Shown: in pieces, positions 2,862 through 59,242 of the stretch
How the letters are laid out: each line of letters starts with the position of its first letter
Position numbering within the stretch: position 1 is the stretch's first letter
Source: an uncultured Eubacteriales bacterium
GTDB taxonomy: Bacteria; Bacillota; Clostridia; TANB77; UBA1234
Assembly: GCA_949283575.1 (NCBI GenBank)
Contig: CASDSU010000005.1
Coordinates: forward strand, 1 to 64,000
Direction of reading: 5' to 3'
Length of the DNA stretch: 64,000 nt
The notes under the pieces: model-generated
What the model saw: the letters and a program-made list of their open reading frames with translations, nothing else
The model's database searches: none
Told to the model about the DNA's origin: nothing
Made by a program: the position numbers and the translations under genes

Positions 2862-3053
2862 ATGAAATATTGTGATGCTATCAAATGCCTAAGAAAAAAG
2901 CTTCTTCTATCTCAAACAGAGTTTGCAGAGAAGATGGGCGTGGCGTTTGTGACTGTTAATAGATGGGAGAACGGCAACAACGTTCCCACTTTTAAATATA
3001 AAAGAAAATTAGCACCTCTCTTCAAAGAAAACGGAATTGAGGTGGAAGAATGA
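2862..3053 (+). CDS. XRE-family controller of the restriction operon
   Basis: A 63-residue, single-domain helix-turn-helix protein (LSQTEFAEKMGVAFVTVNRW, residues 21-40). I chose the ATG at 2862, 8 nt after GGAGG, rather than an upstream start. It overlaps the methyltransferase gene by 4 nt, so the two are translationally coupled. Small XRE proteins upstream of restriction-modification genes typically act as controller (C) proteins that time methyltransferase and nuclease expression. It is clearly related to the XRE protein at 33142 (shared VAF-T-NRWEN core). Confidence 0.85.
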   Translation: MKYCDAIKCLRKKLLLSQTEFAEKMGVAFVTVNRWENGNNVPTFKYKRKLAPLFKENGIEVEE

Positions 3054-8098: not shown

Positions 8099-9036
8099 TG
8101 ATTACAGTTCAAGAAATATTAAATACAATCGCCATCCCAAATGAAGGTTTGATTCTTAAAAAGAAGGATGTGTTTTACTGGGGCAAAAGCAGCAGTGGAG
8201 ACATTGTTTATGGAATTGAATCTAAAAACAAAAATCTCATCTCAATGACCCAGACAACCAGATATTTAAAAATATGTCTAAATACCACATTTAATGTTTC
8301 CTTTGGTGATTTGAGCGAACAAAAGAATCTATCTTTAATTATCCTCAAGCAAGAAGGGATAAAGTTTTTAGATATTTTTATCAGGCTTACTGACACGATT
8401 GACAGTGAATTGTCGGATCAGGAATTATTGACTTATTTTCTTAATTTAAAAGACTTGTTCTCTAACGACAGTAAAAAGTCTATAAAAGAACTGCAAGGGC
8501 TTTATGGCGAATTATACGCGATGGTCTATTTAAAAGAGAAAGAACAAATTAATATTGCTCAGTTTTATCAATCTGAAGATAAGAGAAAGTTTGACTTTTC
8601 AATTGATGATAACAAGAAAATTGAAGTCAAAACAACAACGCTTCCTGCAAGAATCCATCATTTCAAATTGGATCAACTCAATGTGTTAAGATACGACATA
8701 TTGGTTGCTTCCATAATGCTGCAAAAAGATGACGGTGGATTAAGTCTTAACGCCTTAATAAATAGAGCTAAAGACTTATTTTCCAATAATTTAAAATTAT
8801 TGATACACATAGAAAATATGGTTAAAAACATTGACGTCGATGTTCTTGAAACCTTGAAATATAACAAATCTTTCATTGATGGTAACATCAAATTTGTTAG
8901 AGCAATTGATATTCCAAGAATTCAGGAAAAAACTATGGATGGGGTATTCAATGTTGAATTCGATTCTGACTTGTCAAACTGCAAGCAAATTGATGATAGT
9001 GAAATCTGCGAATGGATTTCGCTACGAGAGGCATAA
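8098..9036 (+). CDS. DUF4420-like PD-(D/E)XK nuclease
   Basis: A 312-residue protein with a PD-(D/E)XK nuclease core: Glu138 in LYGEL, Asp166 in KFDFSI and the Glu176-Val-Lys178 triad strand (KIEVKTTT). Layout and length match the DUF4420 family of putative restriction nucleases. Its start overlaps the stop of the Z1 gene (TAATG). It is the only recognisable nuclease in the operon and the likely cleaving subunit, with the GHKL and Z1 proteins as ATP-dependent partners. Activity is unproven, but the three acidic/basic residues expected of the active site are all present. Confidence 0.82.
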   Translation: MITVQEILNTIAIPNEGLILKKKDVFYWGKSSSGDIVYGIESKNKNLISMTQTTRYLKICLNTTFNVSFGDLSEQKNLSLIILKQEGIKFLDIFIRLTDTIDSELSDQELLTYFLNLKDLFSNDSKKSIKELQGLYGELYAMVYLKEKEQINIAQFYQSEDKRKFDFSIDDNKKIEVKTTTLPARIHHFKLDQLNVLRYDILVASIMLQKDDGGLSLNALINRAKDLFSNNLKLLIHIENMVKNIDVDVLETLKYNKSFIDGNIKFVRAIDIPRIQEKTMDGVFNVEFDSDLSNCKQIDDSEICEWISLREA

Positions 9037-31928: not shown

Positions 31929-32010
31929 CTTAGAATTCGATATTTTTATATAAATTAGTGGGTGAACAATCCTATCTCATTTGCTCCTTAACTCTTGGAG
32001 GTGCATATGC

Positions 32011-33120
32011 ATGATAAGAGTTATAGAGTTGTTTGCTGGCATAGGAAGTCAGCGAGAAGCATTAAATAGAGCCAATATCGGGCATGAAATAGCAGCGATT
32101 AGTGAAAATGATAAATATGCAAGTAAAGCTTATGAATTACTTCATGGACCAACTACTAATTTAGGAGATATAAGAAAAATAGAAAGGATGCCTAAAGCTG
32201 AATTATGGACTTACTCATTTCCTTGTACTGATATTAGTCTAGCAGGAAAAATGAAAGGTTTTGAAAAAGGTAGTAATACTCATTCATCACTGTTATGGGA
32301 AGTTCAAAGACTACTTGAAGTAGCGAAAGAAAATGATGAACTACCTAAATATTTATTGATGGAAAATGTGAAGAATATAGTATCAAAGAAGTTCAAACCA
32401 TTGTTTCAAGTGTGGTTAGATTATTTAACTAATCTAGGATATAAGAATTTTTATAAAGTTTTGAATGCTAGGGACTATGGTATTCCACAAAATAGAGAAC
32501 GCTGTTTTATGGTTTCAATTAGAGATAAAAATGCTAACTATGAATTTCCAAAACCTATTAAATTAACTAAAAAGCTTGCAGATCTTCTAGAAAACGATGT
32601 AGATGAGAAATATTTTCTTAGCGAAAAGCTCATCACTTGTTTTACTGATATGGAGGATAGACATGGTCTTATTCGTGGTCTTAGATTTAAACCAAAATAT
32701 ATGAATGAAACTGACTATGCTTTCACTATTACAACGCACGCAGGATATCGACCAACTGATAATTACATTATTATTCCTCAAGCAACTAAAGAAGGATATG
32801 AACTAGCTAAAGTGGGTGATGGTGTTTATACAAATCGATGTCCATCAAAGAGAGGTGTGGTTCAAAAATCAATGATTCCTACTATCAAAACATCAGTAAG
32901 TGATATAGGAGTGGTTACTAATGATAAAGATGAACTCATATCAATTAGAAGGTTAACACCCAGAGAGTGTTGGCGACTTATGGGCTGGTATGATAATGAA
33001 ATAGATAAAGTCGTTAATGAGTTTAGTAACAATCAACTTTATAAGATGGCGGGGAATGGGATAGTGGTGGATGTGTTAGAAAAAATAATAGAATCACTTT
33101 TAAAAAACGCTATAAAATGA
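32011..33120 (+). CDS. C5-cytosine methyltransferase, first of the LlaJI-like operon
   Basis: A 369-residue Dcm-type enzyme: motif I IELFAGIGSQREA (5-17), motif IV YSFPCTDISLAGK with catalytic Cys72, motif VI MENVKNI, motif VIII PQNRERCFMVS, target-recognition region about 190-320 and motif X KMAGNGIVVDV. The PCT variant of the usual PCQ motif is shared by one subgroup of C5 methylases. I chose ATG 32011, 9 nt after GGAGG; an earlier start in the same frame has no ribosome site. It is one of two C5 methylases in the operon, as in LlaJI and BsuMI systems, where each modifies one strand of an asymmetric site. Confidence 0.92.
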   Translation: MIRVIELFAGIGSQREALNRANIGHEIAAISENDKYASKAYELLHGPTTNLGDIRKIERMPKAELWTYSFPCTDISLAGKMKGFEKGSNTHSSLLWEVQRLLEVAKENDELPKYLLMENVKNIVSKKFKPLFQVWLDYLTNLGYKNFYKVLNARDYGIPQNRERCFMVSIRDKNANYEFPKPIKLTKKLADLLENDVDEKYFLSEKLITCFTDMEDRHGLIRGLRFKPKYMNETDYAFTITTHAGYRPTDNYIIIPQATKEGYELAKVGDGVYTNRCPSKRGVVQKSMIPTIKTSVSDIGVVTNDKDELISIRRLTPRECWRLMGWYDNEIDKVVNEFSNNQLYKMAGNGIVVDVLEKIIESLLKNAIK

Positions 33121-33126
33121 TATAAT
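33114..33126 (+). promoter_or_regulatory. Putative internal promoter (-10 region) of the XRE controller
   Basis: AAAATGATATAAT, identical to 2817-2829, overlapping the methyltransferase stop codon. The predicted transcript would start about 33133, leaving only about 9 nt before ATG 33142, so the controller mRNA may be nearly leaderless, as for several known C-protein genes. Confidence 0.55.
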
Positions 33127-33141
33127 ATGCAAGTAATTTTT

Positions 33142-33333
33142 ATGGGTTATTCTAAGAAAATATTGATTATAAGAGCAAGTTTAGGACTCACACAAGAAGA
33201 ACTGGCTAAGAAATTAAATGTTGCTTTCTCCACAATAAATAGATGGGAGAACGAAAAAACAATGCCTAGTAAAAGATATAGATATTTATTGGATTCTATG
33301 TTTGAAAAATGTATAAAAGAGGTGAACAAATAA
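33142..33333 (+). CDS. XRE-family controller of the second restriction operon
   Basis: A 63-residue helix-turn-helix protein (LTQEELAKKLNVAFSTINRW at residues 16-35). ATG 33127 is an alternative but would overlap the promoter, so 33142 is preferred; neither has a ribosome site. Its end overlaps the start of the adenine methyltransferase (TAATG). The sequence is related to the controller at 2862. Likely a C protein setting the order of methylase and nuclease expression. Confidence 0.8.
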   Translation: MGYSKKILIIRASLGLTQEELAKKLNVAFSTINRWENEKTMPSKRYRYLLDSMFEKCIKEVNK

Positions 33334-34985
33334 TGGGTGATTCTTTAAATAATATCATTAATCCAATTATTACTTTTTTAAAAAGAAATTACAGTCATTT
33401 ATACATTGATTCTATTTTGGACGAATTTAAAAAATTAATCAGTGAAATTGTGATAAGTCCAAATGATGATTCTACTTTTTATGATTTTGATTCACTACAA
33501 AAATTTTTATCTGACTTTAACGAAAAATCTTCTAAAAGAAAGGATAATGGAGTTTATTACACTCCATCTGATTTATGTGATTTTATAAATTCGAATTCAA
33601 TAAAGTTATGGCTTGAAAAATTAAATGCTAATGAATTTGATGGTTTCGATTTTGAAACGTTGCCTTATTTGAAGTTTTGCTTTAAATCTACTATTTTTGA
33701 TCCAACTTGTGGTAGTGGTGAATTTCTAATGTCAATAGTCAAATACAAATTAACATTTTTGAAAAAGAGAAAGGAAAATATTTCTACAGAAGATATAAAA
33801 AAGGTAATAGAGACAATTTTTGGTAACGATATTGATCATTTTTCAACTTTTATTTGTAAAGTGAGATTATTTTTATTAATTTTAGATTTTATCAATCAAA
33901 ACAATATTGACTTTCCATATGGAATTTCAGGGATTTTAAATAATCATTTTTTTAATGAAGATTATATAAAAGGACCAATTAATAATTTGTCTTTTGATTT
34001 AATTGTAGGTAATCCCCCTTATATCGAAGATTCAAAATATAAAATTACATGCACTAATAATGTAAAGTATGGGAACGTATATGCAAATGTACTTTTTAAT
34101 TCGTGTGAAAATTTGAATAATGAAGGCGTATTAGGGTTTGTAATACCTTTATCATATATGTCTACCCCGCGTATGAAAAAAATTAGAAATGATTTAAAAT
34201 CATTTTTGACCGAACAATATATACTATCTTTTAATGATAGGCCTGATTGCTTATTTACTAATGTGCATCAAAAATTGTGCGTTTTAATCTGTAAAAAATC
34301 CTGTAGGAAGATTAATAGAATATACACAAGTAATTATTATTATTGGTATAAAGAAGAAAGACCATATTTGTTTGATAAAGCTAATGTAATTCTAAATAAT
34401 TTTAGTAACGAAAATTTTATTCCAAAGATTGGGAATGCAATTGAAAACTCAATTTACGAAAAAGTAACATTGATTTCTTCAAATAGTTTGTTATCATTTT
34501 TATCGGAAAATAAAGGAAATACTTTATATTTAAATAGTAGGGCTGCATTTTGGATAAAGGCTTTTAGAAATGATCACAATTTTCAAAATTCATATTTACG
34601 TTTTAACTGTAAAAGTACTAAAGAGTCCGTTATTGTATTCAGTATTTTAAATTCTTCCTTGTTTTGGTGGTTTTGGGTTGTAGTTTCTGATTGTTGGCAT
34701 ATTACTAATAAGGAACTCAGTGCTTTTAAAATTCCTAATATATCAGATAGCATATACAAAAAGCTTATAAAAGCATCTTCAAACTTAGAAAAAAAATTAG
34801 AAGAGACTAAGGTTTTTGTTGGAACTAAACAAACAGAATATGAATACAAACATAGAGAATGCATTAAAGAAATACAAATCATTGATGCTTTAATAGGTGA
34901 AATATATGATCTTTCAAAAGATGAAAGTGATTTTATTAAAAGTTATGCATTTAGATATAGAGTAAGTGGAGGGAATAACAGATGA
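33333..34985 (+). CDS. N6-adenine DNA methyltransferase (Eco57I-like class)
   Basis: A 550-residue enzyme: motif I FDPTCGSGEFLMS with Asp123, catalytic motif IV VGNPPYIED with Asn227, then a C-terminal target-recognition region ending in a coiled coil (about 470-510). It methylates N6 of adenine using AdoMet. Length and order resemble the methylase half of Eco57I-type proteins, but no nuclease motif is visible in the 80-residue N-terminus. The start is ATG 33333 behind GAGGTG, and the end overlaps the next C5 methylase by 4 nt. An adenine methylase inside a LlaJI-like operon is unusual. Confidence 0.88.
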   Translation: MGDSLNNIINPIITFLKRNYSHLYIDSILDEFKKLISEIVISPNDDSTFYDFDSLQKFLSDFNEKSSKRKDNGVYYTPSDLCDFINSNSIKLWLEKLNANEFDGFDFETLPYLKFCFKSTIFDPTCGSGEFLMSIVKYKLTFLKKRKENISTEDIKKVIETIFGNDIDHFSTFICKVRLFLLILDFINQNNIDFPYGISGILNNHFFNEDYIKGPINNLSFDLIVGNPPYIEDSKYKITCTNNVKYGNVYANVLFNSCENLNNEGVLGFVIPLSYMSTPRMKKIRNDLKSFLTEQYILSFNDRPDCLFTNVHQKLCVLICKKSCRKINRIYTSNYYYWYKEERPYLFDKANVILNNFSNENFIPKIGNAIENSIYEKVTLISSNSLLSFLSENKGNTLYLNSRAAFWIKAFRNDHNFQNSYLRFNCKSTKESVIVFSILNSSLFWWFWVVVSDCWHITNKELSAFKIPNISDSIYKKLIKASSNLEKKLEETKVFVGTKQTEYEYKHRECIKEIQIIDALIGEIYDLSKDESDFIKSYAFRYRVSGGNNR

Positions 34986-36079
34986 AAACTATCGATTTAT
35001 TTTCTGGATGCGGTGGGCTTTCGCTTGGATTTGAATGGGCAGGCTATACAATCTCGCAAGCAGTTGAGTTTGATAAAGAAATTGCTCGATCGTATATTGC
35101 TAATCATAAAGATACGGAAATTATAATTGATGATATTAAAAATGTCGACAATAATAAAATTTTCAAAAAAGGTAGTGCTGAAGTTATTATAGGTGGACCG
35201 CCATGTCAAGGATTTTCGATGGCTGGAGCTAGAATTAGAGATGGTTTTATAGATGATCCAAGAAATTATTTGTTTAAGCATTATTTTAACGTCGTAAAGG
35301 AAGTTATGCCTAAAATTTTTGTTATTGAAAACGTAAAAGGACTGCTAACAATGCAAAATGGGAAAATCTTAGCTGAAATTTTTAAATTATTCTCAAATGA
35401 AAAATTGTTAGATGGTCATAAATATTTTTTGCATTATAAAGTTGTCAAAGCAGTAGAAATTGGCATTCCGCAAAAAAGGGAAAGAGTCATTATAATAGGT
35501 TCATTAGATAAAGACTTTGACATGGAATATCTATGGAATGTTGCTACCAATGAAATATTGAAAGACAAACCTCATTTTTTTGATAGAGTAACAGTTAGAG
35601 ATGCAATTGGTAATTTGCCAAGTCCAACAATTGATGGAAAAATAAATAATCCTGCAGCTATAACTAACTATCAAGAATTTCTGAAAACAGAGGATAAATA
35701 TATTTATAATCACGTTAAAACAAACCATACATATAAGTCTATTGAAAGAATAAAGAAAATAGCATGTGGAGAAAATTATACAGTTTTAAATGAAAAAATT
35801 AATTCTGTTCACAGTGGAGCATATGGCAGATTATGTTGGGATGAACCTTCCCCAACAATCACTACTAGATTTGATACTCCTGCCGGAGGAAGATTTATAC
35901 ATCCAACTGAGAATAGAACCATTACTCCTAGAGAAGCTGCGAGACTTCAAAGTTTTCCAGACGATTTCGTTTTTGTAGGTAATCGCACCACAATAAATAA
36001 AGTGATTGGGAATGCTGTACCACCAAAAATTGGTTATTTTTTAGGGGTTTTTGTTAAAGGATTATTAGGGAGGTGCTGA
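34982..36079 (+). CDS. C5-cytosine methyltransferase, second of the operon
   Basis: A 365-residue Dcm-type enzyme: motif I TIDLFSGCGGLSLGF (3-17), motif IV GGPPCQGFSMAG with catalytic Cys75, motif VI IENVKGL, motif VIII PQKRERVIIIG, target region about 185-290 and motif X VIGNAVPPKIGYF. It differs clearly from the C5 methylase at 32011. It overlaps the adenine methylase upstream by 4 nt and precedes the McrB-like gene by 2 nt, so methylases and nuclease are in one translation unit. Confidence 0.94.
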   Translation: MKTIDLFSGCGGLSLGFEWAGYTISQAVEFDKEIARSYIANHKDTEIIIDDIKNVDNNKIFKKGSAEVIIGGPPCQGFSMAGARIRDGFIDDPRNYLFKHYFNVVKEVMPKIFVIENVKGLLTMQNGKILAEIFKLFSNEKLLDGHKYFLHYKVVKAVEIGIPQKRERVIIIGSLDKDFDMEYLWNVATNEILKDKPHFFDRVTVRDAIGNLPSPTIDGKINNPAAITNYQEFLKTEDKYIYNHVKTNHTYKSIERIKKIACGENYTVLNEKINSVHSGAYGRLCWDEPSPTITTRFDTPAGGRFIHPTENRTITPREAARLQSFPDDFVFVGNRTTINKVIGNAVPPKIGYFLGVFVKGLLGRC

Positions 36080-36081
36080 GT

Positions 36082-38715
36082 ATGAAGGATTTATTAGAAG
36101 AGAAAATAGAATCTTTGGATAAAGCAAATGAATATGAATGCTGGTATTTAGTAAAGCAAACTGTAGATTTTACTAGTCTTTGCTATAAAGTTAAGGCTTT
36201 AAGCAACTATCAACGAGGCAGCAAAGCAACGAATTTGGAAAATTTCATCAATAATTACATATCTTCAATTAAAAAGGCAAAACCACATTTAACTATTGAA
36301 GAAAATTATAGACAGTTAAGAATTGCAGCTTATTTTGGCTTAATAAAAATGACTGATGCTAAATATGAAAATGCCTTGATTACAAATGTATTTTATGAAA
36401 TTGAGACTCTTTGCAATGGAGAATTTGAGAAAACTAATCTTTATCAAGAAATAATAGATAGACAAATAGAAAAAATATATGTTTCTTCTAATATAGATGA
36501 AGGAAAACAAAATGTAAGAAAAGAATTTACTATATTTCCTGCCATTTTTCTTTATAAATTATTGTTAGAAATTGGAAATAGCACTGGGAAATATTCAATC
36601 ACTTTAAATGAATATCGTTATCTAGTTACAACAACAAAAAAATACGAAGATTTTATAGATACATTAATTTTAATTAAATTATTGCGCAATAATCCTAATG
36701 CAAACATAAAATTAGCAACTTTTAGAACTAAATTTGATAATAGAATAAATCAAGCTTTAGCGTTATTGAGCACTTTAAAATTTGATAAGGATAACGTAAG
36801 CATAAATCCAATAAAATTAGATGAAGTGAAGGCGAAAGTCTATAATTATGAATGCCATAAAAATGAAATAGAGCAAACTAATTATATTAATTTCTTGTGT
36901 TCTAATAGTGGTTTTTTAACTTATAATTCCAAGCAAAACATGGAATATTTATCTCCTGAATGGCTAAAATCAAAAGAACATTTATATATTACATTCAATA
37001 AGGAAGCTGAAACTTTTGTTACATTATTTAATCAAAAATACGGTATAGAGGCTTTAAAAAGGATTGACAAAAAACAACTTGCCGAATATCTATTTTTAGG
37101 CAAAAGAGAAGATAATTTGTGTCATGAACTCGAATATAATGAAACTTCAAAAAAATTATTTGGATCAATAAGTGGTGGCTATTCATATACATACCCTTGT
37201 TTTTATAAACAAGCAACTTTGTCATGGGTCACAGGCAGTTCGAGAAAAAACAAAACCATATCTCAAGAAGAAGCTAACGAGATTGCTGAAGATACTTTAA
37301 ATAAGTTGATTGATGGCTATAACATAATCCTTTCATATAAAGATAGGCTTTTAAATAAAGAAACATATTTAGAATTATATATTTCATTAGTCGAAAAAAT
37401 AGGAAGTTTAGCTGATAAACAATGGGTAATTAAATACTATACTATTTTATTTTCTAATTTATTTTCGCCTTTTTATAGTGATGAGTGGCAAAAGAATGCG
37501 CTTAAAGCATTAGAATGCGAACCAGATGATAATAATTATGTTCAAAATGGAATTATAACTCTTGTTGCTTTAGAAGCTAATATTACACCAATTGTATTAT
37601 CTAGAATAATATACGATATTATCGATGGTAAATATAAAACAGAAAAGCCAACAACAGAAGACATGGGTTCAGAAGAAAAGAACTTAAATAGCAAATCCAG
37701 AATTAAAGGCGGAGAAAATGTAATTGTTTATGGTGTTCCGGGTGCAGGTAAGAGCCATTTAGTTAAGGATGAATATTTAAATGGAGACGAAAATGAAGAA
37801 TATTATGAGAGATTAGTTTTTCACCCTGATTATACTTACTCTGACTTTGTTGGTCAGATTATGCCAATTGTAGACGCAGAAAAAAGAGTAACTTATGAGT
37901 TTACGCCCGGTCCATTTACTAGAATTTTAAAAAAGGCATATCGTGATCCTGAACATAAATATTCTTTGGTTATTGAAGAAATAAATCGTGGTAATGCTGC
38001 GGCTATTTTTGGTGATATCTTCCAATTATTAGATCGCAAATTGGATGGCGAAAGTGAATACAGAATCACAAATAAAGATATTGCCAAAGTTGTTTATGGC
38101 GAAAAATATATTGATAAAAAAATATATATTCCATCAAATATGAGCATTATTTGCACAATGAATACATCAGATCAAAATGTTTTCACTTTAGATACAGCTT
38201 TCCAAAGAAGATGGATTATGAGATTAGTTTCTAATTCATTTGATGGTGATACAAGCGGAATAGGTAAAGTAGAAATTTTAGATGCTGGTTTAACATGGGA
38301 ACAATTCTGTAAAACAATTAATAGCGAAATATTAGATAAATCACAATCATTATCATCATCGGAAGATAAACGTTTAGGCACACATTTTGTAAGAGCAGAA
38401 GATTTGAAATATGATCCTAATGAAAATTCTAACGATCCAACTATTAAAATTAAAGCTCAACATCAAAATAGATTATTTGCAGAAAAAGTTATCAAGTACT
38501 TGTGGGATGATGTCTATAAATATGATAGAACGTCTCTATTTGATTCGGACTACAAGAGTTTAGAACAAGTAATTAATGATTTTATAAAATCTACGCACAT
38601 TGAGAGATTCAAAATATTCAAGCAAGATATTCGCGAATACTTAAAGCAATTAGCTGATGAAAATTCAAAAAATAAGCAACCAAACAATGATTCAAACACT
38701 GAAAGCAATGGTTAA
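36082..38715 (+). CDS. McrB-like AAA+ NTPase (R1 subunit, LlaJI/BsuMI type)
   Basis: An 877-residue restriction subunit. The N-terminal 500 residues are helical and probably hold the DNA-recognition part. The C-terminal AAA+ domain has Walker A GVPGAGKSH (about 551-559), Walker B IEEINRG (about 631-637) and the McrB signature MNTSDQN (about 693-699), where GTP-specific McrB proteins have MNTAD. In McrBC-type enzymes this hexameric motor translocates DNA and activates the nuclease encoded next. ATG 36082 follows GGGAGGTG; the frame opens 9 nt earlier with GTG. Intact. Confidence 0.9.
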   Translation: MKDLLEEKIESLDKANEYECWYLVKQTVDFTSLCYKVKALSNYQRGSKATNLENFINNYISSIKKAKPHLTIEENYRQLRIAAYFGLIKMTDAKYENALITNVFYEIETLCNGEFEKTNLYQEIIDRQIEKIYVSSNIDEGKQNVRKEFTIFPAIFLYKLLLEIGNSTGKYSITLNEYRYLVTTTKKYEDFIDTLILIKLLRNNPNANIKLATFRTKFDNRINQALALLSTLKFDKDNVSINPIKLDEVKAKVYNYECHKNEIEQTNYINFLCSNSGFLTYNSKQNMEYLSPEWLKSKEHLYITFNKEAETFVTLFNQKYGIEALKRIDKKQLAEYLFLGKREDNLCHELEYNETSKKLFGSISGGYSYTYPCFYKQATLSWVTGSSRKNKTISQEEANEIAEDTLNKLIDGYNIILSYKDRLLNKETYLELYISLVEKIGSLADKQWVIKYYTILFSNLFSPFYSDEWQKNALKALECEPDDNNYVQNGIITLVALEANITPIVLSRIIYDIIDGKYKTEKPTTEDMGSEEKNLNSKSRIKGGENVIVYGVPGAGKSHLVKDEYLNGDENEEYYERLVFHPDYTYSDFVGQIMPIVDAEKRVTYEFTPGPFTRILKKAYRDPEHKYSLVIEEINRGNAAAIFGDIFQLLDRKLDGESEYRITNKDIAKVVYGEKYIDKKIYIPSNMSIICTMNTSDQNVFTLDTAFQRRWIMRLVSNSFDGDTSGIGKVEILDAGLTWEQFCKTINSEILDKSQSLSSSEDKRLGTHFVRAEDLKYDPNENSNDPTIKIKAQHQNRLFAEKVIKYLWDDVYKYDRTSLFDSDYKSLEQVINDFIKSTHIERFKIFKQDIREYLKQLADENSKNKQPNNDSNTESNG

Positions 38716-38728
38716 CTGAAGGTCAAAC

Positions 38729-39988
38729 ATGAATGAAGAAAAGAGCTTAATTGATTATTGTCATGTTGATAAAAATGATGATGGAGATAGATTTGTTGGA
38801 CTAAAATCGATTGATGATAATGGTCATCAAATAGTAATGGTCTACTTTCCTTGCGGATATAATTTGCCTTCTGATGAAGTTGCGATTAGGAATGATATTA
38901 TAAATTTATTTAGAATTTTAGCGGATTTTAGTAAGGGTGAAGATATATTACTTAAGGTAAAATCAAATGTAGCCAACGTGTCTGTAAACTTTCCAATAAA
39001 AGCATATTTGGATATTATCCAGTATTATTTGGAATACAAAACTTTTTATGCCGAAACCGAAACTACTTTTAAAACAGATACAAGAGGAAAAGCCAACTGG
39101 GCAAAAACTATAAAAGATCAGGTTCCATCAATACAAAATGGAAATTTGTTTTATATTAAAAAAACAGTTAGAGATACACAACCAATGAAGAATCAGCTAA
39201 TCACTGAGATACACAGATATTGTACTCATGAAAGCTTTTCTAAACTTGGGTGGTTATTTGGAACTTCAATGATACCAAGAAACACTGACATTGTTCCTAA
39301 AAATACTGATGATAAGTCTTTTATTCCAAGATTTATATCAATTATAAACGATCAACTTAAAAAGACTTTTGAAGATAGAATAAAGAAGTTGCTAAATGCA
39401 ATGCTAAGTGTTTTGAATTATAAAAACACCGAAGATAATTCGAATAGGTATTATTTTGGAACGGATCGTTTTGAATATGTTTGGCAAGGAATGATTGATA
39501 GACTATTTGGTATTCGAGAAAATAAACAAGATTACTTCCCTAGAACTAAATGGATTCCTAGATATCTTAAAGATCAAAATAAAAATAAACATCCGCTAGA
39601 ACCTGATAGCATTATGATTTATAAAGATGAATTCTATGTTCTCGACGCAAAATACTATCGCTATGGACTAAGTGGAGATGTTGATCATCTTCCAAATTCT
39701 TCTGACATCAATAAGCAAATAACCTATGGTGAATATGTTTATTTGCATAAAAATAAAGACCCTTATAACGCTTTTATAATGCCATTTAATAGAAAGGACA
39801 ATCCTTTCAACATTAGTGAAGACATGTGTAATGTCGCCGAAGCATCAGCTAATTGGAAAACTGAAGGTCATAAATTTGAGAAAATACAGGGGATTTTAGT
39901 GGATACAAGATTTTTGATGTATCAATATGCATCCAATAATAATGATAAATATAAAGAAAAATTATCAATTGCTATAGAAAGTAATTAA
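38729..39988 (+). CDS. LlaJI/McrC-like restriction nuclease subunit
   Basis: A 419-residue protein with a C-terminal PD-(D/E)XK site: Asp293 in EPDSIMIY and Asp306-Ala-Lys308 in YVLDAKYYRYG. The remaining part resembles the LlaJI family R2 subunits that partner McrB-like NTPases. It follows the NTPase by 13 nt and closes the operon before a terminator. Together with the two C5 methylases it defines a LlaJI/BsuMI-like restriction system. The cleavage site is unknown. Confidence 0.85.
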   Translation: MNEEKSLIDYCHVDKNDDGDRFVGLKSIDDNGHQIVMVYFPCGYNLPSDEVAIRNDIINLFRILADFSKGEDILLKVKSNVANVSVNFPIKAYLDIIQYYLEYKTFYAETETTFKTDTRGKANWAKTIKDQVPSIQNGNLFYIKKTVRDTQPMKNQLITEIHRYCTHESFSKLGWLFGTSMIPRNTDIVPKNTDDKSFIPRFISIINDQLKKTFEDRIKKLLNAMLSVLNYKNTEDNSNRYYFGTDRFEYVWQGMIDRLFGIRENKQDYFPRTKWIPRYLKDQNKNKHPLEPDSIMIYKDEFYVLDAKYYRYGLSGDVDHLPNSSDINKQITYGEYVYLHKNKDPYNAFIMPFNRKDNPFNISEDMCNVAEASANWKTEGHKFEKIQGILVDTRFLMYQYASNNNDKYKEKLSIAIESN

Positions 39989-48912: not shown

Positions 48913-49218
48913 ATGAGAGAAAAATACCTAGAAGAATTGCTTATAAAAGCAGTGAAGAAAAGGAATGGACTAGCTCTAAAGCTTTACTCACCTAGCTATA
49001 TAGGTGTTCCAGATAGATTAGTTCTTATCGCATTTGGTCATATTGGTTTTGTAGAACTTAAGGCACCTAATAAAGTGGCAAGACCTATACAGCTTAAAAG
49101 GCATGAAGAATTAAGAAATTTAGGGTTCAAAGTGTATGTACTAGATAAGAAAGAGGAAATAGAAAAGATACTCGATGAAATTGAAGGAGGAAGGAACGAT
49201 GAACTATCAACCACATGA
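48913..49218 (+). CDS. VRR-NUC domain nuclease
   Basis: A 101-residue minimal VRR-NUC protein: GVPDRLVLI (Asp) and GHIGFVELKAPN (Glu-x-Lys) form the PD-(D/E)XK site, with Gln/Arg in the following helix. Phage VRR-NUC proteins cut branched DNA. GGAGG precedes the start; the end overlaps the helicase gene by 20 nt. Confidence 0.9.
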   Translation: MREKYLEELLIKAVKKRNGLALKLYSPSYIGVPDRLVLIAFGHIGFVELKAPNKVARPIQLKRHEELRNLGFKVYVLDKKEEIEKILDEIEGGRNDELSTT

Positions 49219-51529: not shown

Positions 51530-52066
51530 GTGGCTAATAGAAAAAATAAAAGAATTTACACAACCGATATCTGGGAACAATGGAAAAAAGATGGAAAGTT
51601 AGAAGAAGTTTTAGCTTTTATTGCTGATTGTTCAAAAAAGCTCGTCACTCAAAGGGAGATGTGCAAATACCTTAAGATTGAAGAACATACTTTTACTAAT
51701 TTGAAGCACAAATATCCTCAAATCCAAGAGGCAATGGACAAATCCAGATACGAGTTAAAAAAAGACTTAGCTAATGCAATGTATAAAAAAGCAATAGGCT
51801 ATGAAACTATCGATGAAGATCAATTAATTGAAGAAAAAGATGGAAAGCAAAAGAAAAAAGTCCATCGAATAAAGAAGCAAGTCGGACCTGACTTTAAGGC
51901 TATTGTTTATCTATTAACTAAGAAGTTTGGTAAAGAATATAGCGAAAGATATGAAGATTTAAGACTTGCTGAAAAGAAACTAGAAGCACAAAAGGAGGAA
52001 TGGAACAGTGTCGAATCAATCACAGAAGAATATGACGATAGTGATGAAGAATATAGCGGAGATTAA
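51530..52066 (+). CDS. Phage HTH protein, terminase-small-subunit-like
   Basis: A 178-residue protein: N-terminal helix-turn-helix (TQREMCKYLKIEEHTFTNLK, residues 36-55) and a long charged helix at the C-terminus, a layout of some phage small terminases and DNA-packaging regulators. The GTG start is set by AAAGGAGG. A P27-type small terminase is also present at 59235, so this one may have another DNA-binding role. It overlaps the methyltransferase gene by 59 nt. Confidence 0.6.
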   Translation: MANRKNKRIYTTDIWEQWKKDGKLEEVLAFIADCSKKLVTQREMCKYLKIEEHTFTNLKHKYPQIQEAMDKSRYELKKDLANAMYKKAIGYETIDEDQLIEEKDGKQKKKVHRIKKQVGPDFKAIVYLLTKKFGKEYSERYEDLRLAEKKLEAQKEEWNSVESITEEYDDSDEEYSGD

Positions 52067-53264
52067 ACCCTATGAGAATAATCCTAGACATAATGAATCC
52101 GCTATAGATGCAGTCGCTAGTTCCATTAAGGAGTTTGGTTGGAAACAGCCTCTAGTTATCGATAAAGACAATGTTATAGTGGTCGGTCATACAAGATGGC
52201 TTGCTGCTAAAAAACTAGGATTAAGTGATGTCCCTTGTTTAATAGCTAGTGATTTAACTGATGAGCAGATTGCTGCTTATAGACTTGCCGATAATAAGAC
52301 TAATGAACTAGCAACTTGGGACTTTGAAAAACTTAAAACTGAACTCGAAAGCATATCTGACATTGATATGTCGCAGTTTGGTTTTGAAGAGTTAGAGGCA
52401 AGTTTAGATGATGTAAAAGATGATGAGTTTGATGAACAAGGAGCAATTAGTGAAACACCTTATTCTAAAAAAAGGGATATCTTCATTCTTGGAAACCATC
52501 GTCTTATGGTTGGTGATTCCACCTTGAAAGATGATGTCGATAAACTTTGTGAAGATAGAAGTGTAGATTTAGTTCTTACCGATCCTCCTTACAATGTAGA
52601 CTACGAAGGTCAGGATGGAATGAAAATCCAAAACGATAAGCAAAGCGATGAAGATTTTTATAATTTCTTGCTTTCAGCATTTAAGAATATGTTTGAACAC
52701 ACAAAGCCTGGTGGAGTTATATATTGTTTTCATGCTGATACAGAAGGGCTTAACTTTAGAAATGCTTTTAAAAATGCCGGATTTAAACTTGCTGAATGTT
52801 TAATTTGGGTTAAAAACTCACTTGTTTTAGGAAGGCAAGATTATCAGTGGCGTCATGAACCATGCCTTTATGGATGGAAAGAAGGGGCTGGGCATTACTT
52901 TGTCGATGATAGAACTCAAGATACAATCCTTGAATATGATAAGCCTAGAAACAACAATCTCCATCCAACGCAAAAGAACATAGAGCTAGTTTCTAAACTC
53001 ATTCTTAATTCTTCAAGAAAAGATGAAACAATCCTCGACCTATTTGGAGGTTCTGGAACAACACTTATAGCTGCTGAACAACTAGGAAGAAAAACGCTCA
53101 TGATGGAGTTAGATGAGAAGTATGCAGATGTAATAGTCAAACGATTTATCACTTTTAAGCACTCAGTAGATGGGTGCTTTTTAATTAGAGATGGAAATAA
53201 AACTCCACTTAGTGAAATCAAAGATTATAAGAAGGTTTTAGATAATGAAGAGGTTCTATCTTAA
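52008..53264 (+). CDS. ParB-like nuclease domain fused to N4/N6 DNA methyltransferase
   Basis: A 418-residue protein. Residues 12-120 are a ParB/Srx-like domain (IKPYENNPRH; VVGHTRWLAA). The rest is a beta-class methyltransferase with LVLTDPPYNVDY (Asp192) before ILDLFGGSGTTL (Asp344). These fusions are frequent orphan methylases of temperate phages, thought to guard phage DNA or alter host methylation. The start is GTG 52008, 10 nt after GGAGG. The MetK gene follows. Confidence 0.92.
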   Translation: MSNQSQKNMTIVMKNIAEIKPYENNPRHNESAIDAVASSIKEFGWKQPLVIDKDNVIVVGHTRWLAAKKLGLSDVPCLIASDLTDEQIAAYRLADNKTNELATWDFEKLKTELESISDIDMSQFGFEELEASLDDVKDDEFDEQGAISETPYSKKRDIFILGNHRLMVGDSTLKDDVDKLCEDRSVDLVLTDPPYNVDYEGQDGMKIQNDKQSDEDFYNFLLSAFKNMFEHTKPGGVIYCFHADTEGLNFRNAFKNAGFKLAECLIWVKNSLVLGRQDYQWRHEPCLYGWKEGAGHYFVDDRTQDTILEYDKPRNNNLHPTQKNIELVSKLILNSSRKDETILDLFGGSGTTLIAAEQLGRKTLMMELDEKYADVIVKRFITFKHSVDGCFLIRDGNKTPLSEIKDYKKVLDNEEVLS

Positions 53265-53298
53265 AGTTACTCCATTTGAGCGACTTAACGAAAAATAA
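53245..53298 (+). CDS. 17-codon ORF between methyltransferase and metK
   Basis: ATG 53245 to TAA 53298 codes MKRFYLKVTPFERLNEK, overlapping the methyltransferase end by 20 nt. It has only a weak ribosome site. It may simply be a spacer. Confidence 0.2.
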   Translation: MKRFYLKVTPFERLNEK

Positions 53299-53325
53299 TC
53301 AAATTTGAAAGGAAAAATAATAATT

Positions 53326-54441
53326 ATGAATAAATACGTAACTTGTGAATCAGTTTTTAGAGGACATCCAGATAAGCTATGTGATCAAATTAGCGATGCC
53401 ATTTTAGATGAATATTTACTAAAAGATAAAGACTCAAGGGTGGCGATTGAATGTTCTATTAAGGATAACCTAGTCATTATCTTTGGTGAGGTTACCTCTA
53501 AAGCTCACGTCAATTTAGAAAAGGTAGCTAAAAGAGTTTTAAGAGATATTGGCTATTTTGATAACTTTGTTGTTATCACTAAGGTTTCTACTCAGTCTTG
53601 GGATATAGCAAAGGGAGTAGATAAACTTGGAGCAGGCGACCAAGGAATAATGTATGGCTATGCAACTAATGAAACCAAAGAGTGCTTACCTCTTCCTTAT
53701 GTGATTGCTAGAGATATTTCAAAAGCAGTAGAAAACATCAGAAAAGAAAAATACATGGATGTTCTTATGCCTGATGGTAAGTGCCAAGTAACTGTTAGAT
53801 ATGAGGATAATAAGCCAAAAGACATCAAAACAATTGTGGTAAGTACTCAAACTAAAAAAGGAGTAAAACTTGAAGAAGTAAAAAGAATCATTAAAGAAGA
53901 AGTTTTAATTCCTTTGTTAGGTTCTACTCTTGATGGTATTGAGATCTTGATTAATCCAACAGGAGCATTCTTTAGAGGTGGTCCTTATGCTGATAGTGGA
54001 CTTACAGGAAGAAAACTCATGGTCGATACTTACGGTGGAGTTGCTCATCATGGTGGAGGAGCCTTCAGTGGTAAGGACTATACCAAAGTTGATAGAAGCG
54101 GTGCTTATTATGCAAGATTTGTTGCTAGGTCAATTGTAGAAGCTGGACTAGCCGATAAATGTGAAGCAGCTGTTTCTTATTCGATTGGAGTAGCAAGTCC
54201 AGTAAGCGTAAGCATAGATACTTTTGGAACAGGAAAACTTAGTGATGACGAGCTTTTAAAGCTCATTAATGATTACTTTGATTTCTCAGTAGGCAACATC
54301 ATAAAAGAACTTAAATTAAAGGATATCTCTTATCAAAGACTAGCCGAATATGGACACTTTGGTAATGACATTTATCCTTGGGAGAATGTAGATGGAAAAG
54401 TCAGTGAGCTCAAGAAGGCTACAGCCAAAGCGTCTACATAA
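53326..54441 (+). CDS. metK: S-adenosylmethionine synthetase encoded in the prophage
   Basis: A 371-residue methionine adenosyltransferase, making AdoMet from Met and ATP. Signatures are intact: VFRGHPDKLCDQISDA, GAGDQGIMYGYATNE and the P-loop-like GGGAFSGKDYTKVDRSG. It is slightly shorter than the usual 380-400 residues. I chose ATG 53326, behind GAAAGGA, over an earlier TTG. Placed right after a DNA methyltransferase, it probably feeds DNA methylation or replaces host AdoMet during infection. The HNH gene overlaps its last 50 nt. Confidence 0.95.
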   Translation: MNKYVTCESVFRGHPDKLCDQISDAILDEYLLKDKDSRVAIECSIKDNLVIIFGEVTSKAHVNLEKVAKRVLRDIGYFDNFVVITKVSTQSWDIAKGVDKLGAGDQGIMYGYATNETKECLPLPYVIARDISKAVENIRKEKYMDVLMPDGKCQVTVRYEDNKPKDIKTIVVSTQTKKGVKLEEVKRIIKEEVLIPLLGSTLDGIEILINPTGAFFRGGPYADSGLTGRKLMVDTYGGVAHHGGGAFSGKDYTKVDRSGAYYARFVARSIVEAGLADKCEAAVSYSIGVASPVSVSIDTFGTGKLSDDELLKLINDYFDFSVGNIIKELKLKDISYQRLAEYGHFGNDIYPWENVDGKVSELKKATAKAST

Positions 54442-55519: not shown

Positions 55520-56662
55520 ATGGGGGATTTTGTTAGACCAAAGAAGTATACAGATTGTGATGCAGTTGGAATTTTAAAAGCAAACATTAATATAAATGAC
55601 GCTTATGAAAAATTACTTAAAAAACTTGCAAGTGAGGAAACAATTGATAAAAATTTTTTAGCTTTAGCAAAAGAACGTAGAAATGTTGATGGTAAAGTTA
55701 AGTATCATGAAGTATTTGGTATAGTCTTTAACTTTAATTACTATACTAAAGATTATGATTTTTATGACACAGAAGAAGTTAATAAAAAATTAACAGAAGA
55801 TTTACATATCGTAGATGTTCATACAACAGTTCATCATACGGATACGATTACAACTCAACATAAAGATAATGGTAAAGGTCTAGTTTTTAAAGATCCTTTT
55901 ACACATGAAGTAGTTTATGTACCTTTTGCTGGTGATTGTTTTGATATTATAAAGGAGAGATTAGGTTGGGAATCTAGAATGTTTACGCCTTCTAGTGTAT
56001 TTGAATTAGATGTAGCTTCTAAAAATATTGAATTAATTGCTGATTGTGAATATTTAAATGTTGCAAAAGATAGATTTAAGATTGATAGATATACTTTAAA
56101 TACATTTGCAGATGATCTAGCTAGAAAGCAAAATAAAATTTTTGGAAATCATGCTACTACGACTCTCGCAAAGAATTTTTTTGCAGCTTGTTATTTACAA
56201 CCTTATTATGTTTTTGAATTTTCTTTTAATGGAAGAAATTACACATATTATGTTAATGGTTTTACTAAGGAAATTGTAAATTGTGGTCTACCACCAACCG
56301 ATGAAGATGTTAAAAAGAATTTAAAAGCAAATAGACGTCTTGAACAATATATTAAACTTCCTTTATTAGTATGTGGAGCATTAAATATTATCGGATGGTT
56401 AACATATGTAATTAAAATAGCTTCAAGCCCTTCTCCAAACATTGGAGGAATTGTAGCTATGGTTATATGTTTTGCGGTTATTCCAAATGTTTTCTTAGGA
56501 CTTTTCAATTTTTTGTGGATTGATTATCATTATTCACATAATAAAGAAACTTTTAAATCATTAATTAAAAATAATAAAAAGGAATTTATTAAAACAATTA
56601 TTGCTTATATAATTGCTCTTATAGCTTTTATTTTAGCAATTGTTGCTTTTTCAATTATTTAA
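55520..56662 (+). CDS. Unknown membrane protein in the prophage cargo block
   Basis: A 380-residue protein: soluble N-terminal 280 residues (many Tyr, Asp, Lys) and three to four C-terminal hydrophobic helices (about 285-380, e.g. LLVCGALNIIGWLTYVIKIA). No family recognised. ATG 55520 lies behind AAAGGAG, but the frame stays open 48 nt upstream through the G10 tract to a TTG. Base composition is lower in G+C than the phage genes around it, which suggests acquired cargo; a terminator follows. Confidence 0.6.
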   Translation: MGDFVRPKKYTDCDAVGILKANININDAYEKLLKKLASEETIDKNFLALAKERRNVDGKVKYHEVFGIVFNFNYYTKDYDFYDTEEVNKKLTEDLHIVDVHTTVHHTDTITTQHKDNGKGLVFKDPFTHEVVYVPFAGDCFDIIKERLGWESRMFTPSSVFELDVASKNIELIADCEYLNVAKDRFKIDRYTLNTFADDLARKQNKIFGNHATTTLAKNFFAACYLQPYYVFEFSFNGRNYTYYVNGFTKEIVNCGLPPTDEDVKKNLKANRRLEQYIKLPLLVCGALNIIGWLTYVIKIASSPSPNIGGIVAMVICFAVIPNVFLGLFNFLWIDYHYSHNKETFKSLIKNNKKEFIKTIIAYIIALIAFILAIVAFSII

Positions 56663-56883: not shown

Positions 56884-57090
56884 ATGTCATTGGAAAAGTT
56901 ACAAGAAAAGCTTAGTAGCCTCAGCGAGGAAACAAAGTCTTTATATAACAAGATTGATGAGAAGTACCAAATAACCATAAACGGGGAAGGCGCTGTTGAG
57001 TTAGTGGACATAAGCAACTTCAAGGTCCTTGCTAGAGGCGAAAAGAAGATAAGGGAAGCGATGAAAAAACTTCTTGAGGGAGCTAGATAA
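56884..57090 (+). CDS. Small helical phage protein
   Basis: A 68-residue protein with an N-terminal coiled coil (LEKLQEKLSSLSEETKSLYN). ATG 56884 is set by GAGGAGG at 8 nt; another ATG at 56877 is too close to the site and gives only 12 codons. Not recognised. Its stop lies inside a terminator stem. From here to about 59200 codons ending in C or G are more frequent than in neighbouring genes. Confidence 0.55.
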   Translation: MSLEKLQEKLSSLSEETKSLYNKIDEKYQITINGEGAVELVDISNFKVLARGEKKIREAMKKLLEGAR

Positions 57091-57103
57091 TGGCTCCTTT
57101 TTT
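57079..57103 (+). terminator. Rho-independent terminator
   Basis: GGAGC/GCTCC stem around the stop codon of the 68-residue gene, followed by six Ts. It separates that gene from the amidoligase unit. Confidence 0.6.
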
Positions 57104-57235
57104 CTTGGTTTAAAGCAGTACAAAAATATAGTTCAAAATACCTCGATTATTGAGTTGCTATCGTGTGTTTTTAGAGCCATATATGTATGTGCGAAGGCTA
57201 GAAAACACACCTTCGGGAAAGAGGTAAATTTAGAT

Positions 57236-58159
57236 ATGTTTAAAGAGAAATTCGGAATCGAGATCGAGTTCACTGGGATGACCAGAAACAAGGCCAGCAA
57301 GGTCGTTGCTGAAGTCATCAATGGATCGATTACTGAAACAAGAGACTATTATGACACAAAGGAGATAAAAGCCTTGGACGGACGTAAGTGGAAGGTCATG
57401 TACGATGGTTCCCTTAGATGCCAAACCAAGAGGAATGGCGAAATCATAAGCGCTGGTAGAGATTATTCCTGCGAGCTTGTAAGTCCTATCCTCACTTATA
57501 ACGAGGACATCGAAACCTTGCAAGAAATCGTTAGGGCTTTAAGGAAGAGTGGAGCATTTACTAACGCAAGCTGCGGTATCCACATCCACCTTGATGGAGC
57601 TGACCATGACGTAAGGACCATTAGGAACTTCATCAACATCATCGCTTCTAAAAACGACCTTCTTTACAAGGCTCTAGAAATCAAGCAAGAGAGGATGAGG
57701 TTCTGCAAGAAGATGGATGAGCACTTGGTCACCAACATCAACAAGAAGCATCCTAAGACATTGGCTCAGCTCGCTGATATTTGGTACCAAGGCTACTACG
57801 GAAGCAGGAACACACACTACCACGATAGCAGATATCACTTCCTTAACCTTCATTCGTTCTTTACTGGTAACCACACTGTTGAACTTAGGGGATTCAACTC
57901 TGAACTCCATGCTGGGAAGGTTAGAAGTTACGTTTGCTTGGCTCTTGCCTTAAACCACCAAGCATTGACCCAAAAGTGCGCATCTAGCAAGAAGCCTCAA
58001 GTCGAGAACGAGAAGTTCGCTATGCGTACCTACCTCAACCGAATCGGGATGATAGGCGAGGAATTCAAGAACTGCAGAGTCCATTTGACTAACGCTTTGA
58101 ACGGATGCTCGGCTTGGAGATTCGGAAGAAATGAAGCGACTTTAGGAGGAGCAAGATAA
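57236..58159 (+). CDS. Amidoligase (glutamine-synthetase-fold COOH-NH2 ligase)
   Basis: A 307-residue protein of the putative amidoligase family: FGIEIEFTGMTRNKA at the start, YSCELVSPILTYNED, SCGIHIHLDGADHD and NHTVELRGFNSELHAGKV, which match the acidic, His and Arg residues of glutamine-synthetase-like ligases. Such enzymes join a carboxylate to an amine using ATP. I chose ATG 57236 behind AAAGAGG because the family motif begins 6 residues later. A 6-bp hairpin CGAAGG/CCTTCG precedes the ribosome site. The downstream gamma-glutamyl cyclotransferase gene is adjacent, a known pairing. Confidence 0.85.
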   Translation: MFKEKFGIEIEFTGMTRNKASKVVAEVINGSITETRDYYDTKEIKALDGRKWKVMYDGSLRCQTKRNGEIISAGRDYSCELVSPILTYNEDIETLQEIVRALRKSGAFTNASCGIHIHLDGADHDVRTIRNFINIIASKNDLLYKALEIKQERMRFCKKMDEHLVTNINKKHPKTLAQLADIWYQGYYGSRNTHYHDSRYHFLNLHSFFTGNHTVELRGFNSELHAGKVRSYVCLALALNHQALTQKCASSKKPQVENEKFAMRTYLNRIGMIGEEFKNCRVHLTNALNGCSAWRFGRNEATLGGAR

Positions 58160-58578
58160 TGAAGAAATATTATTTAGCATACGGTTCAAACCTAAATCTA
58201 AGCCAAATGAGAAGGAGATGCCCAAACGCCAAGAAGGCGGGTAGTTTCCTTCTCAAGGGCTACGAACTCGAATTTAGATATTACTTAACAATCAAGAAAA
58301 GCCGTGATGGTGAGGTTCCTTCGGGCATCTTTGAAATCGACGAGAACGACGAAAGAAGCCTAGATAGATATGAAGGCTATCCGACGCATTATAGGAAGGA
58401 ATATTTGGAAGTCGAACTTAACGGCAAACCTATCAAGGCTCTTGTCTACATCATGAATGAAGAAGTAAGAGGAGTGATGGTTCCCGACATGTTCTATGTG
58501 ACCACATGCCTTGAAGGCTATAAGGACTTCGGCTTCGATAGCGGATATCTATTCAAGGCTTATAAGGAGGCGGAATGA
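58159..58578 (+). CDS. Gamma-glutamyl cyclotransferase-like protein (GGCT/AIG2)
   Basis: A 139-residue GGCT-fold enzyme: substrate loop AYGSNL (7-12) and catalytic Glu72 in LDRYEGYP. It releases 5-oxoproline from gamma-glutamyl amines. It starts on the last base of the amidoligase stop codon and has GGAGG, so the two are coupled. Combined with the amidoligase it would make and break, or trim, a gamma-glutamyl-type amide bond on a metabolite or protein. Confidence 0.9.
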   Translation: MKKYYLAYGSNLNLSQMRRRCPNAKKAGSFLLKGYELEFRYYLTIKKSRDGEVPSGIFEIDENDERSLDRYEGYPTHYRKEYLEVELNGKPIKALVYIMNEEVRGVMVPDMFYVTTCLEGYKDFGFDSGYLFKAYKEAE

Positions 58579-58805
58579 AAATGAGTGAAGCACTAATTCA
58601 GTTGAGGGTTAATCAACTTAGAGCAATGGATGAGTTCGTCCATTCAATTAACAATGAGGAGTTGATGGAAGATTGGCTTTCGTGTGGCGTACCAGATGAA
58701 GCGAGCGAAGAGGACTATTCCTATATCGCTAGTGACGAGGAACTCTACAAGACCTGCGTTCGCATATTCAAGCGCATCGCGATAGAAGAGGAGGCGTATT
58801 ATTGA
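58575..58805 (+). CDS. Small acidic protein in the amidoligase operon
   Basis: A 76-residue acidic protein (ALIQLRVNQLRAMDEFVHSI, then DEASEEDYSYIASDEELY), helical, unknown. AAGGAGG precedes ATG 58575, which overlaps the GGCT stop. It could be a target or partner of the ligase pair. Confidence 0.55.
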   Translation: MKMSEALIQLRVNQLRAMDEFVHSINNEELMEDWLSCGVPDEASEEDYSYIASDEELYKTCVRIFKRIAIEEEAYY

Positions 58806-59242
58806 TGAATTACTTTAACTTTGAGAAGAAGCATTGTCCTTTATGCGGGCATTTGCTTGAGCGTTATCCAAATAACGGAGCGCCTTTAATCAACGAAGAT
58901 GTGTGCCTAGACTGCAATAACAAGATTATCCTTCCTTACCGATATTTCCTTGCTACCTATAAAGTCAATTCAAACGCGATGCTCATTAGGGATGGAAAGA
59001 TAAAACTTATTAAGACTAGCGACGATAACTTCAAACTTAGCGATATCGAGCTTTATCTTAAGAGGAACTTCACGCTTAAAAACAACGCGAAATTAGGCCT
59101 CACGTTCGCTTTTATTAAGGGTATGGAACAAGAAGCCAATGACCTAAATTTAGTAGCACTAAAAGCCTTAAAAGCGCCTAATTTTAAAAGTGTGATGGTA
59201 ATTCCTACTAGGCTTTTGAAAGGAGTTAAATTAAATGAATAA
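58805..59242 (+). CDS. Zinc-ribbon phage protein
   Basis: A 145-residue protein with a CPLCG ... CLDCN zinc ribbon in the first 40 residues, followed by an unknown alpha/beta domain. GAGGAGG lies upstream; the start overlaps the previous stop (TGATG). Function unknown. Its end overlaps the small terminase gene by 8 nt. Confidence 0.6.
   Translation: MNYFNFEKKHCPLCGHLLERYPNNGAPLINEDVCLDCNNKIILPYRYFLATYKVNSNAMLIRDGKIKLIKTSDDNFKLSDIELYLKRNFTLKNNAKLGLTFAFIKGMEQEANDLNLVALKALKAPNFKSVMVIPTRLLKGVKLNE

Follow-up and report, generated by a model that had tools for sequence, protein, structure and literature searches.

A predicted gamma-glutamyl ligase and its linked cyclotransferase in a Ca. Heliusvirales-like prophage

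The 64,000-nt window analyzed here, meaning the whole stretch of contig DNA under study, carries a ligase gene and a gamma-glutamyl cyclotransferase (GGCT) gene that we interpret, at a probability of about 0.6, as an accessory, moron-like module carried by a Ca. Heliusvirales-like prophage of an uncultured gut bacterium, a module in which the ligase would add gamma-glutamate to an amine and the GGCT would remove it as 5-oxoproline. The pair occurs widely among gut phages of Firmicutes, and its ligase is under strong selection. Below, related loci are denoted by the prefix L.

The ligase and cyclotransferase genes and their products

The ligase ORF runs on the forward strand from an ATG at position 57236 to a stop codon ending at 58159 and encodes 307 amino acids; this start is supported by GAGGT lying upstream and by relatives that start at the equivalent residue. 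Its product matched Pfam Amidoligase_2 (PF12224) over residues 4-239 (E = 4.9e-75; 253 bits, cut-off 22) and phrog_2443 (E = 1.8e-91; 309 bits), and a conserved C-terminal extension, at about residues 245-296, was found past the Pfam domain. In an alignment of 63 diverse homologs, G7, E9, E11, D57, S59, E80, P84, G114, H116, H118, E216, and R218 were invariant or nearly so. Among these, E9, E11, E80, H116, H118, E216, and R218 were equated with the ATP/metal site of glutamine synthetase (GS) by motif and fold rather than by superposed ligands. The original prediction of a GS-fold ligase had hinged on ATP-site residues being present, and the alignment showed the motif residues to be intact in the window and invariant in relatives. 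A PDB sequence search with the ligase returned nothing meaningful, and the fold assignment therefore rests on profile and structure. An AlphaFold2 model (mean pLDDT 94.4) was compared with known structures using VIA-align and was found to resemble YbdK (Z 13.5, rmsd 4.0, 235 residues aligned), plant glutamate-cysteine ligase (Z 13.1, rmsd 4.1, 252 aligned), many glutamine synthetases (Z about 11), the gamma-glutamylcysteine synthetase (gamma-GCS) of E. coli (Z 10.9), and the depupylase Dop (Z 10.7), with the matches to gamma-glutamyl/GS-type ligases spanning residues 1-292. As modeled, the fold is the curved beta-sheet fold of GS. Taken together, the PF12224 and phrog_2443 matches, the model, and the fold matches bear out the predicted GS-fold ligase and point to an ATP-dependent gamma-glutamyl/carboxylate-amine ligase as its probable identity. 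As the GS superfamily also holds hydrolases (Dop), the motifs alone leave the ligase activity predicted and not proven; no biochemical test of this ligase subfamily was found in the searchable literature.

The adjoining gene (58159-58578, forward strand) encodes a 139-residue cyclotransferase of the GGACT/AIG2 type. Its product matched PF06094 (GGACT) with E = 1.6e-13 and 51.7 bits (cut-off 22.8) and phrog_2520 with E = 9e-39; a PDB sequence search found no match at E 0.1. The residues Y8-G9-S10-N11, E72, and Y78 were kept without exception in 138 homologs. When compared with Tyr7, Gly8, Thr9, Glu82, and Tyr88 of mouse GGACT (PMC2954230), the window residues Y8-G9-S10, E72, and Y78 agreed in kind and spacing. 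These profile matches and conserved active-site residues confirm that the gene had been correctly identified as a GGCT.

The stop codon of the ligase and the start codon of the GGCT share one base (TAATG), and AGGAGG occurs just 5' of this junction, making translational coupling from ligase to GGCT plausible. The usual spacing of the two genes in relatives is 35-38 nt, with extremes of -22 and 869 nt; the one-base overlap is thus not itself a conserved feature. The coupling that had been proposed thus stands as plausible for this locus, with its overlap and AGGAGG, but the overlap is not kept among relatives.

Linkage of the pair and a dead paralog in related phages

A GGCT was detected at 148 of 157 ligase loci and, after removal of near-duplicates, lay just downstream and on the same strand at 174 of 190; several of the exceptions were short contigs. 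In a few distant phages, namely the Faecalibacterium phage FP_Taranis and certain phages of Christensenellales, no GGCT was found near the ligase, and given these the partner is not always required. In Arthrobacter phages, whose ligase is about 25% identical, a GGACT gene is found directly upstream, in reversed order. A second set of loci, selected by a paralog of the ligase (described below) and having full flanks (n = 42), comprised 17 with both ligase and GGCT, 25 with neither, and none with only one (Fisher p = 3.9e-12, a value that is indicative since some of the 42 contigs are related). This perfect co-occurrence shows that the coupling is no artefact of collecting loci by their ligase. 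The co-occurrence survey called for by the original prediction was thereby run on two collections, one of them independently chosen, and its counts support the proposed pairing at the level of linkage: ligase and GGCT behave as a unit with near-obligate physical linkage. Such perfect coupling also makes the GGCT, through release of 5-oxoproline, a direct read-out for the ligase product, rendering a prediction from 2009 testable.

Within the host genome no other PF12224 or PF06094 gene was found. A search of 95 genomes around the host found any PF12224 gene in nine of them, and the non-host matches were much weaker. The ligase of the Christensenellales phages L165 and L157 is encoded on the other strand from ParB (in L165 also from terminase and portal), which is what one would expect of a moron.

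High-identity ligases occur in prophages of Bacillus, Clostridium, a lactobacillus, and uncultured Bacilli. Fourfold sites in ligase pairs at 60-80% amino acid identity were near-saturated (0.33 observed, 0.28 random). Recent spread was ruled out on this ground as the source of the family's high ligase identity, which instead reflects strong purifying selection. The GGCT was less conserved than the ligase in those pairs (median 54%).

A second gene, which as a rule is annotated as an amidoligase, is present no more than 4 kb from the ligase at 90 of the 128 loci that have full flanks; in most cases it lies a few hundred bases upstream. This gene is homologous to the ligase (hhalign probability 100, E = 1.9e-40) and falls in the ligase's own PHROG; a structure search with its product gave weak matches (top Z 6.5), which leaves its profile match with the ligase as the basis of the assignment. 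Its catalytic set is lost, with E11 mostly replaced by Asn, R218 mostly by Pro, and H116 mostly by Thr, and with the segment bearing E80 deleted, while a C-terminal block, NEK(F/Y)A(M/F)R..L.R.GF.G..(F/Y)K, is kept. Examples are L100:8937-9620 and L160:3875-4600, with about 120 other loci. The residue pattern suggests that the neighboring second "amidoligase" is a catalytically dead paralog and probably a pseudoenzyme. Two amidoligases have been counted in the Terrisporobacter phage TPDSL_ph1 (PMC11253131); the first is of the dead-paralog type, and judging by its residues the count should read one amidoligase plus a probable pseudoenzyme. Many second "amidoligases" as now annotated are without catalytic residues, and their current annotation is corrected here. 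The possibility that the paralog is an obligate partner of the ligase was ruled out, as 25 of the 42 full-flank paralog loci are without a ligase; it is a neighbor rather than an obligate subunit. When the window was searched with a dedicated profile for a second amidoligase, only the main ligase matched. Long tblastn spans that could have indicated intron inserts in the ligase (L185, L186, L190, L250, and L276) were explained by an upstream-adjoining paralog ORF.

Small genes, composition, and prophage context

Downstream of the GGCT, the window contains two small forward-strand ORFs, each overlapping the gene before it. One (58575-58805) encodes a 76-aa protein that is acidic by inspection, ends in AYY rather than Glu/Gln, and is lineage-specific, probably not a core member of the cassette. 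The other (58802-59242, 146 aa as listed, although an ATG at 58805 is the likelier start) contains a CxxC...CxxC pattern resembling a zinc ribbon. This is the arrangement originally described, with a ligase and GGCT followed by two small proteins. Neither small product had a significant match in Pfam, PHROG, PADLOC, or NCBIfam, and ribbon matches of the second were found only below threshold in Pfam. Among downstream ORFs at 136 loci, homologs of the 76-aa protein occurred only at the two closest, L096 and L097, and the zinc-ribbon protein had relatives at nine of the 190 loci, in some cases on the upstream side of the ligase. This distribution rules out the two proteins as conserved members of the cassette and gives no support to their being conserved targets of tagging. 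In other phages the slot after the GGCT is filled by DUF5049 (50 loci), a different small zinc ribbon (49 loci), DUF4314 (five loci), or others, and at most loci the small gene overlaps or abuts the end of the GGCT. The slot thus often holds a small gene, but of unrelated families. L041:4747-5397 is a natural GGCT-DUF5049 fusion; unfused DUF5049 follows the GGCT at about 50 loci.

The codon usage of these genes had been said to differ from that of their neighbors, and this was verified. GC3 was 0.56, 0.50, 0.51, and 0.43 for the ligase, GGCT, 76-aa, and zinc-ribbon genes, respectively, against mostly 0.20-0.33 in flanking phage genes, and the ligase departed from phage codon usage with z = -9.4. 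The block of foreign composition spans 56884-59242 (GC3 0.43-0.56) and begins with a 68-aa ORF on the forward strand (56884-57090; GC3 0.485, z = -3.1) that a survey of viral loci detected together with the ligase in L002, the closest relative, and at no other locus. Across 120 related loci GC3 tracks the phage background (r = 0.93 for the ligase and 0.91 for the GGCT), with the ligase averaging only 0.07 above it, and the excess in the window block is about 0.23. Because this excess is unusual, the block is best read as recently acquired from a higher-GC relative. In L097, whose ligase is 85% identical to that of the window, the background GC3 is 0.66. Directly upstream of the block, a very AT-rich membrane-protein-like gene (55520-56662; GC3 0.10), for which no family match was found, is an accessory gene of other origin than the block.

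A hairpin resembling an intrinsic terminator occurs at 57076-57100 on the forward strand (region z = -2.6). It consists of a 10-bp stem and a following T run, and the ORF at 56884-57090 ends within it. Terminator-like matches in the region numbered five against 1.9 expected. The hairpin looks like the terminator of that ORF, and by its position it probably shields the ligase from transcription coming from upstream. Matches resembling promoters were not above chance, and no riboswitch or RNA family matched in the block. Of the earlier suggestion that a hairpin before the ligase hints at separate control, the hairpin proved real and the block may be transcribed separately; the element is terminator-like and sits where the upstream ORF ends.

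The prophage carries genes for DUF2800, a PF10991 ssDNA-binding protein, DNA polymerase A, an SNF2 helicase, terminase (TerL), portal, an S78 protease, and capsid. It runs past the window to about 79.6 kb, where it ends in two serine recombinases (L166, contig C5 64001-84000); no endolysin was obvious by eye among the ORFs of at least 90 aa in L166. Nine core genes are described for Ca. Heliusviridae, namely DUF2800, DUF2815, DNA pol I, VRR-NUC, SNF2, TerL, portal, Clp protease, and MCP (PMC9226167). Of genes bearing on this set, DUF2800, PF10991, pol A, SNF2, TerL, portal, and capsid were found in the prophage; its protease is S78 and not Clp, and a VRR-NUC-like ORF (48913-49218) was recognized by eye only. 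In this gene content the prophage resembles Ca. Heliusviridae in part, with a different protease family. A phage ParB-N6/N4 DNA methylase followed by a SAM synthetase lies at 52008-54441; in relatives a large C5 methylase whose domain is interrupted is often present as well, and the SAM synthetase appears shortened in L082 and L160. Two other stretches of the window, 3050-9036 and 31981-39988, look by eye like restriction/defence islands (C5 methylases together with large ATPase and nuclease-like genes). Within the block itself, PADLOC matched no known defence gene.

Proposed function and comparison with known systems

Fold, motifs, and the chemistry of the partner agree on gamma-glutamyl amides as the predicted product, the gamma-glutamyl chemistry being suggested by the fold relatives of the ligase and the substrate class of the GGCT. 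In the proposed mechanism, the ligase would use ATP to activate the gamma-carboxyl group of glutamate, free or peptide-terminal, as gamma-glutamyl phosphate and would transfer the gamma-glutamyl group to an amine, yielding a gamma-glutamyl amide. The GGCT would then release the group as 5-oxoproline and regenerate the amine, so that the two enzymes may form an add/remove or edit couple acting on one kind of substrate.

This chemistry could serve small-molecule or polyamine metabolism, with the pair making and recycling a gamma-glutamyl amine for phage growth by masking of the PuuA/BtrG kind, for example in nitrogen or polyamine balance or in DNA packaging. We regard this as possible and advance it tentatively. 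The small-amine ligases GmaS and naphthylamine GS are also among the GS-type structural relatives of the ligase model, the partner is of the GGACT class, and the typical place of the pair is between DNA methylases and terminase; however, the recurrent neighborhood clusters included no recognizable gene for polyamine or amine biosynthesis. Alternatively, the pair might decorate or edit an amine of the host wall or envelope so that rival phages cannot adsorb, as two reports on prophages with the same pair propose, citing Iyer et al. 2009 (PMC11318856, PMC11253131). A wall-less host, which would exclude a cell-wall reading, was ruled out by the presence of Mur ligase, PBP transpeptidase, and MraY-type genes in the host. 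Superinfection exclusion of this kind is nonetheless doubtful: neither enzyme has an apparent signal peptide or membrane segment by inspection, so that a cytosolic precursor would be needed as substrate, and the terminase-adjacent position suggests late rather than lysogenic expression.

It is improbable that the ligase acts in the manner of pupylation, joining a peptide-terminal glutamate to protein lysines or glutamylating a protein, while the part of adaptor, substrate, or remover falls to the GGCT or to a small protein encoded downstream of it (DUF5049, zinc ribbon). The fold similarity to Dop, the small gene overlapping or abutting the GGCT, and the single fusion at L041 are consistent with such tagging, but the resemblance to Dop is weaker than that to YbdK and GCL, the downstream genes come from several unrelated families, and the window's small protein ends in AYY; a search for a conserved Pup-like small partner ending in Glu/Gln found none. 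A more elaborate scheme seems to us quite improbable: a phage system for the reversible glutamylation of a protein or peptide, made up of the ligase, the GGCT, and, as adaptor or substrate, a small downstream protein specific to the lineage (DUF5049, a zinc ribbon, or the window's 76-aa product), with the dead paralog as regulatory subunit in related phages. Least credible is decoration of a modified base by the ligase. Recurrent neighbors do include a ParB-domain N6/N4 DNA methylase, a C5 methylase, and a SAM synthetase, but the methylases alone account for ordinary methylation, and genes for a hydroxymethylase, a base-transferase, or a deazaguanine pathway were not recognized among recurrent neighbors.

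Genes for a PF12224 ligase and an AIG2/GGCT protein in phages were predicted by Iyer et al. 2009, as cited in PMC11318856 and PMC11253131, and both are annotated in UFV-P2 (PMC3890496), in Arthrobacter phages (PMC5513430), and in C. clostridioforme prophages and TPDSL_ph1 (PMC11318856, PMC11253131). With Ca. Heliusvirales gut phages, TPDSL_ph1, and the C. clostridioforme prophages, the window shares phrog_2443 and phrog_2520, their order and strand, and a position that in those phages is mostly near the terminase; it differs in having no adjacent dead paralog, as found in most relatives, in its own small downstream genes, and in a composition foreign to its phage. Iyer-type clusters (phiEco32, LUZ24-type) likewise combine PF12224 and AIG2/GGCT in one phage (ORF23 and ORF29 in UFV-P2; PMC3890496), but add ATP-grasp, COOH-NH2 ligase, and glutamine amidotransferase genes, whereas the window has the pair only. 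Among enzymes, YbdK and glutamate-cysteine ligase are the best structural matches over the whole ligase (Z 13.5 and 13.1), at only 11-13% identity and with no PDB chain matched by sequence. The pupylation enzymes PafA/Dop share the superfamily fold (Dop, Z 10.7) without a sequence match, and no Pup-like substrate was identified. The GGCT shares with GGACT the PF06094 domain and the Tyr-Gly-(Ser/Thr), Glu, and Tyr active-site residues, without a PDB sequence match at E 0.1, and is predicted by this likeness to release 5-oxoproline. The ligase/GGCT pair is thus already known, having long been predicted and annotated in other prophages; what is new here are the coupling statistics and the recognition that the second "amidoligase" of many phages is, by its residues, a catalytically dead paralog.
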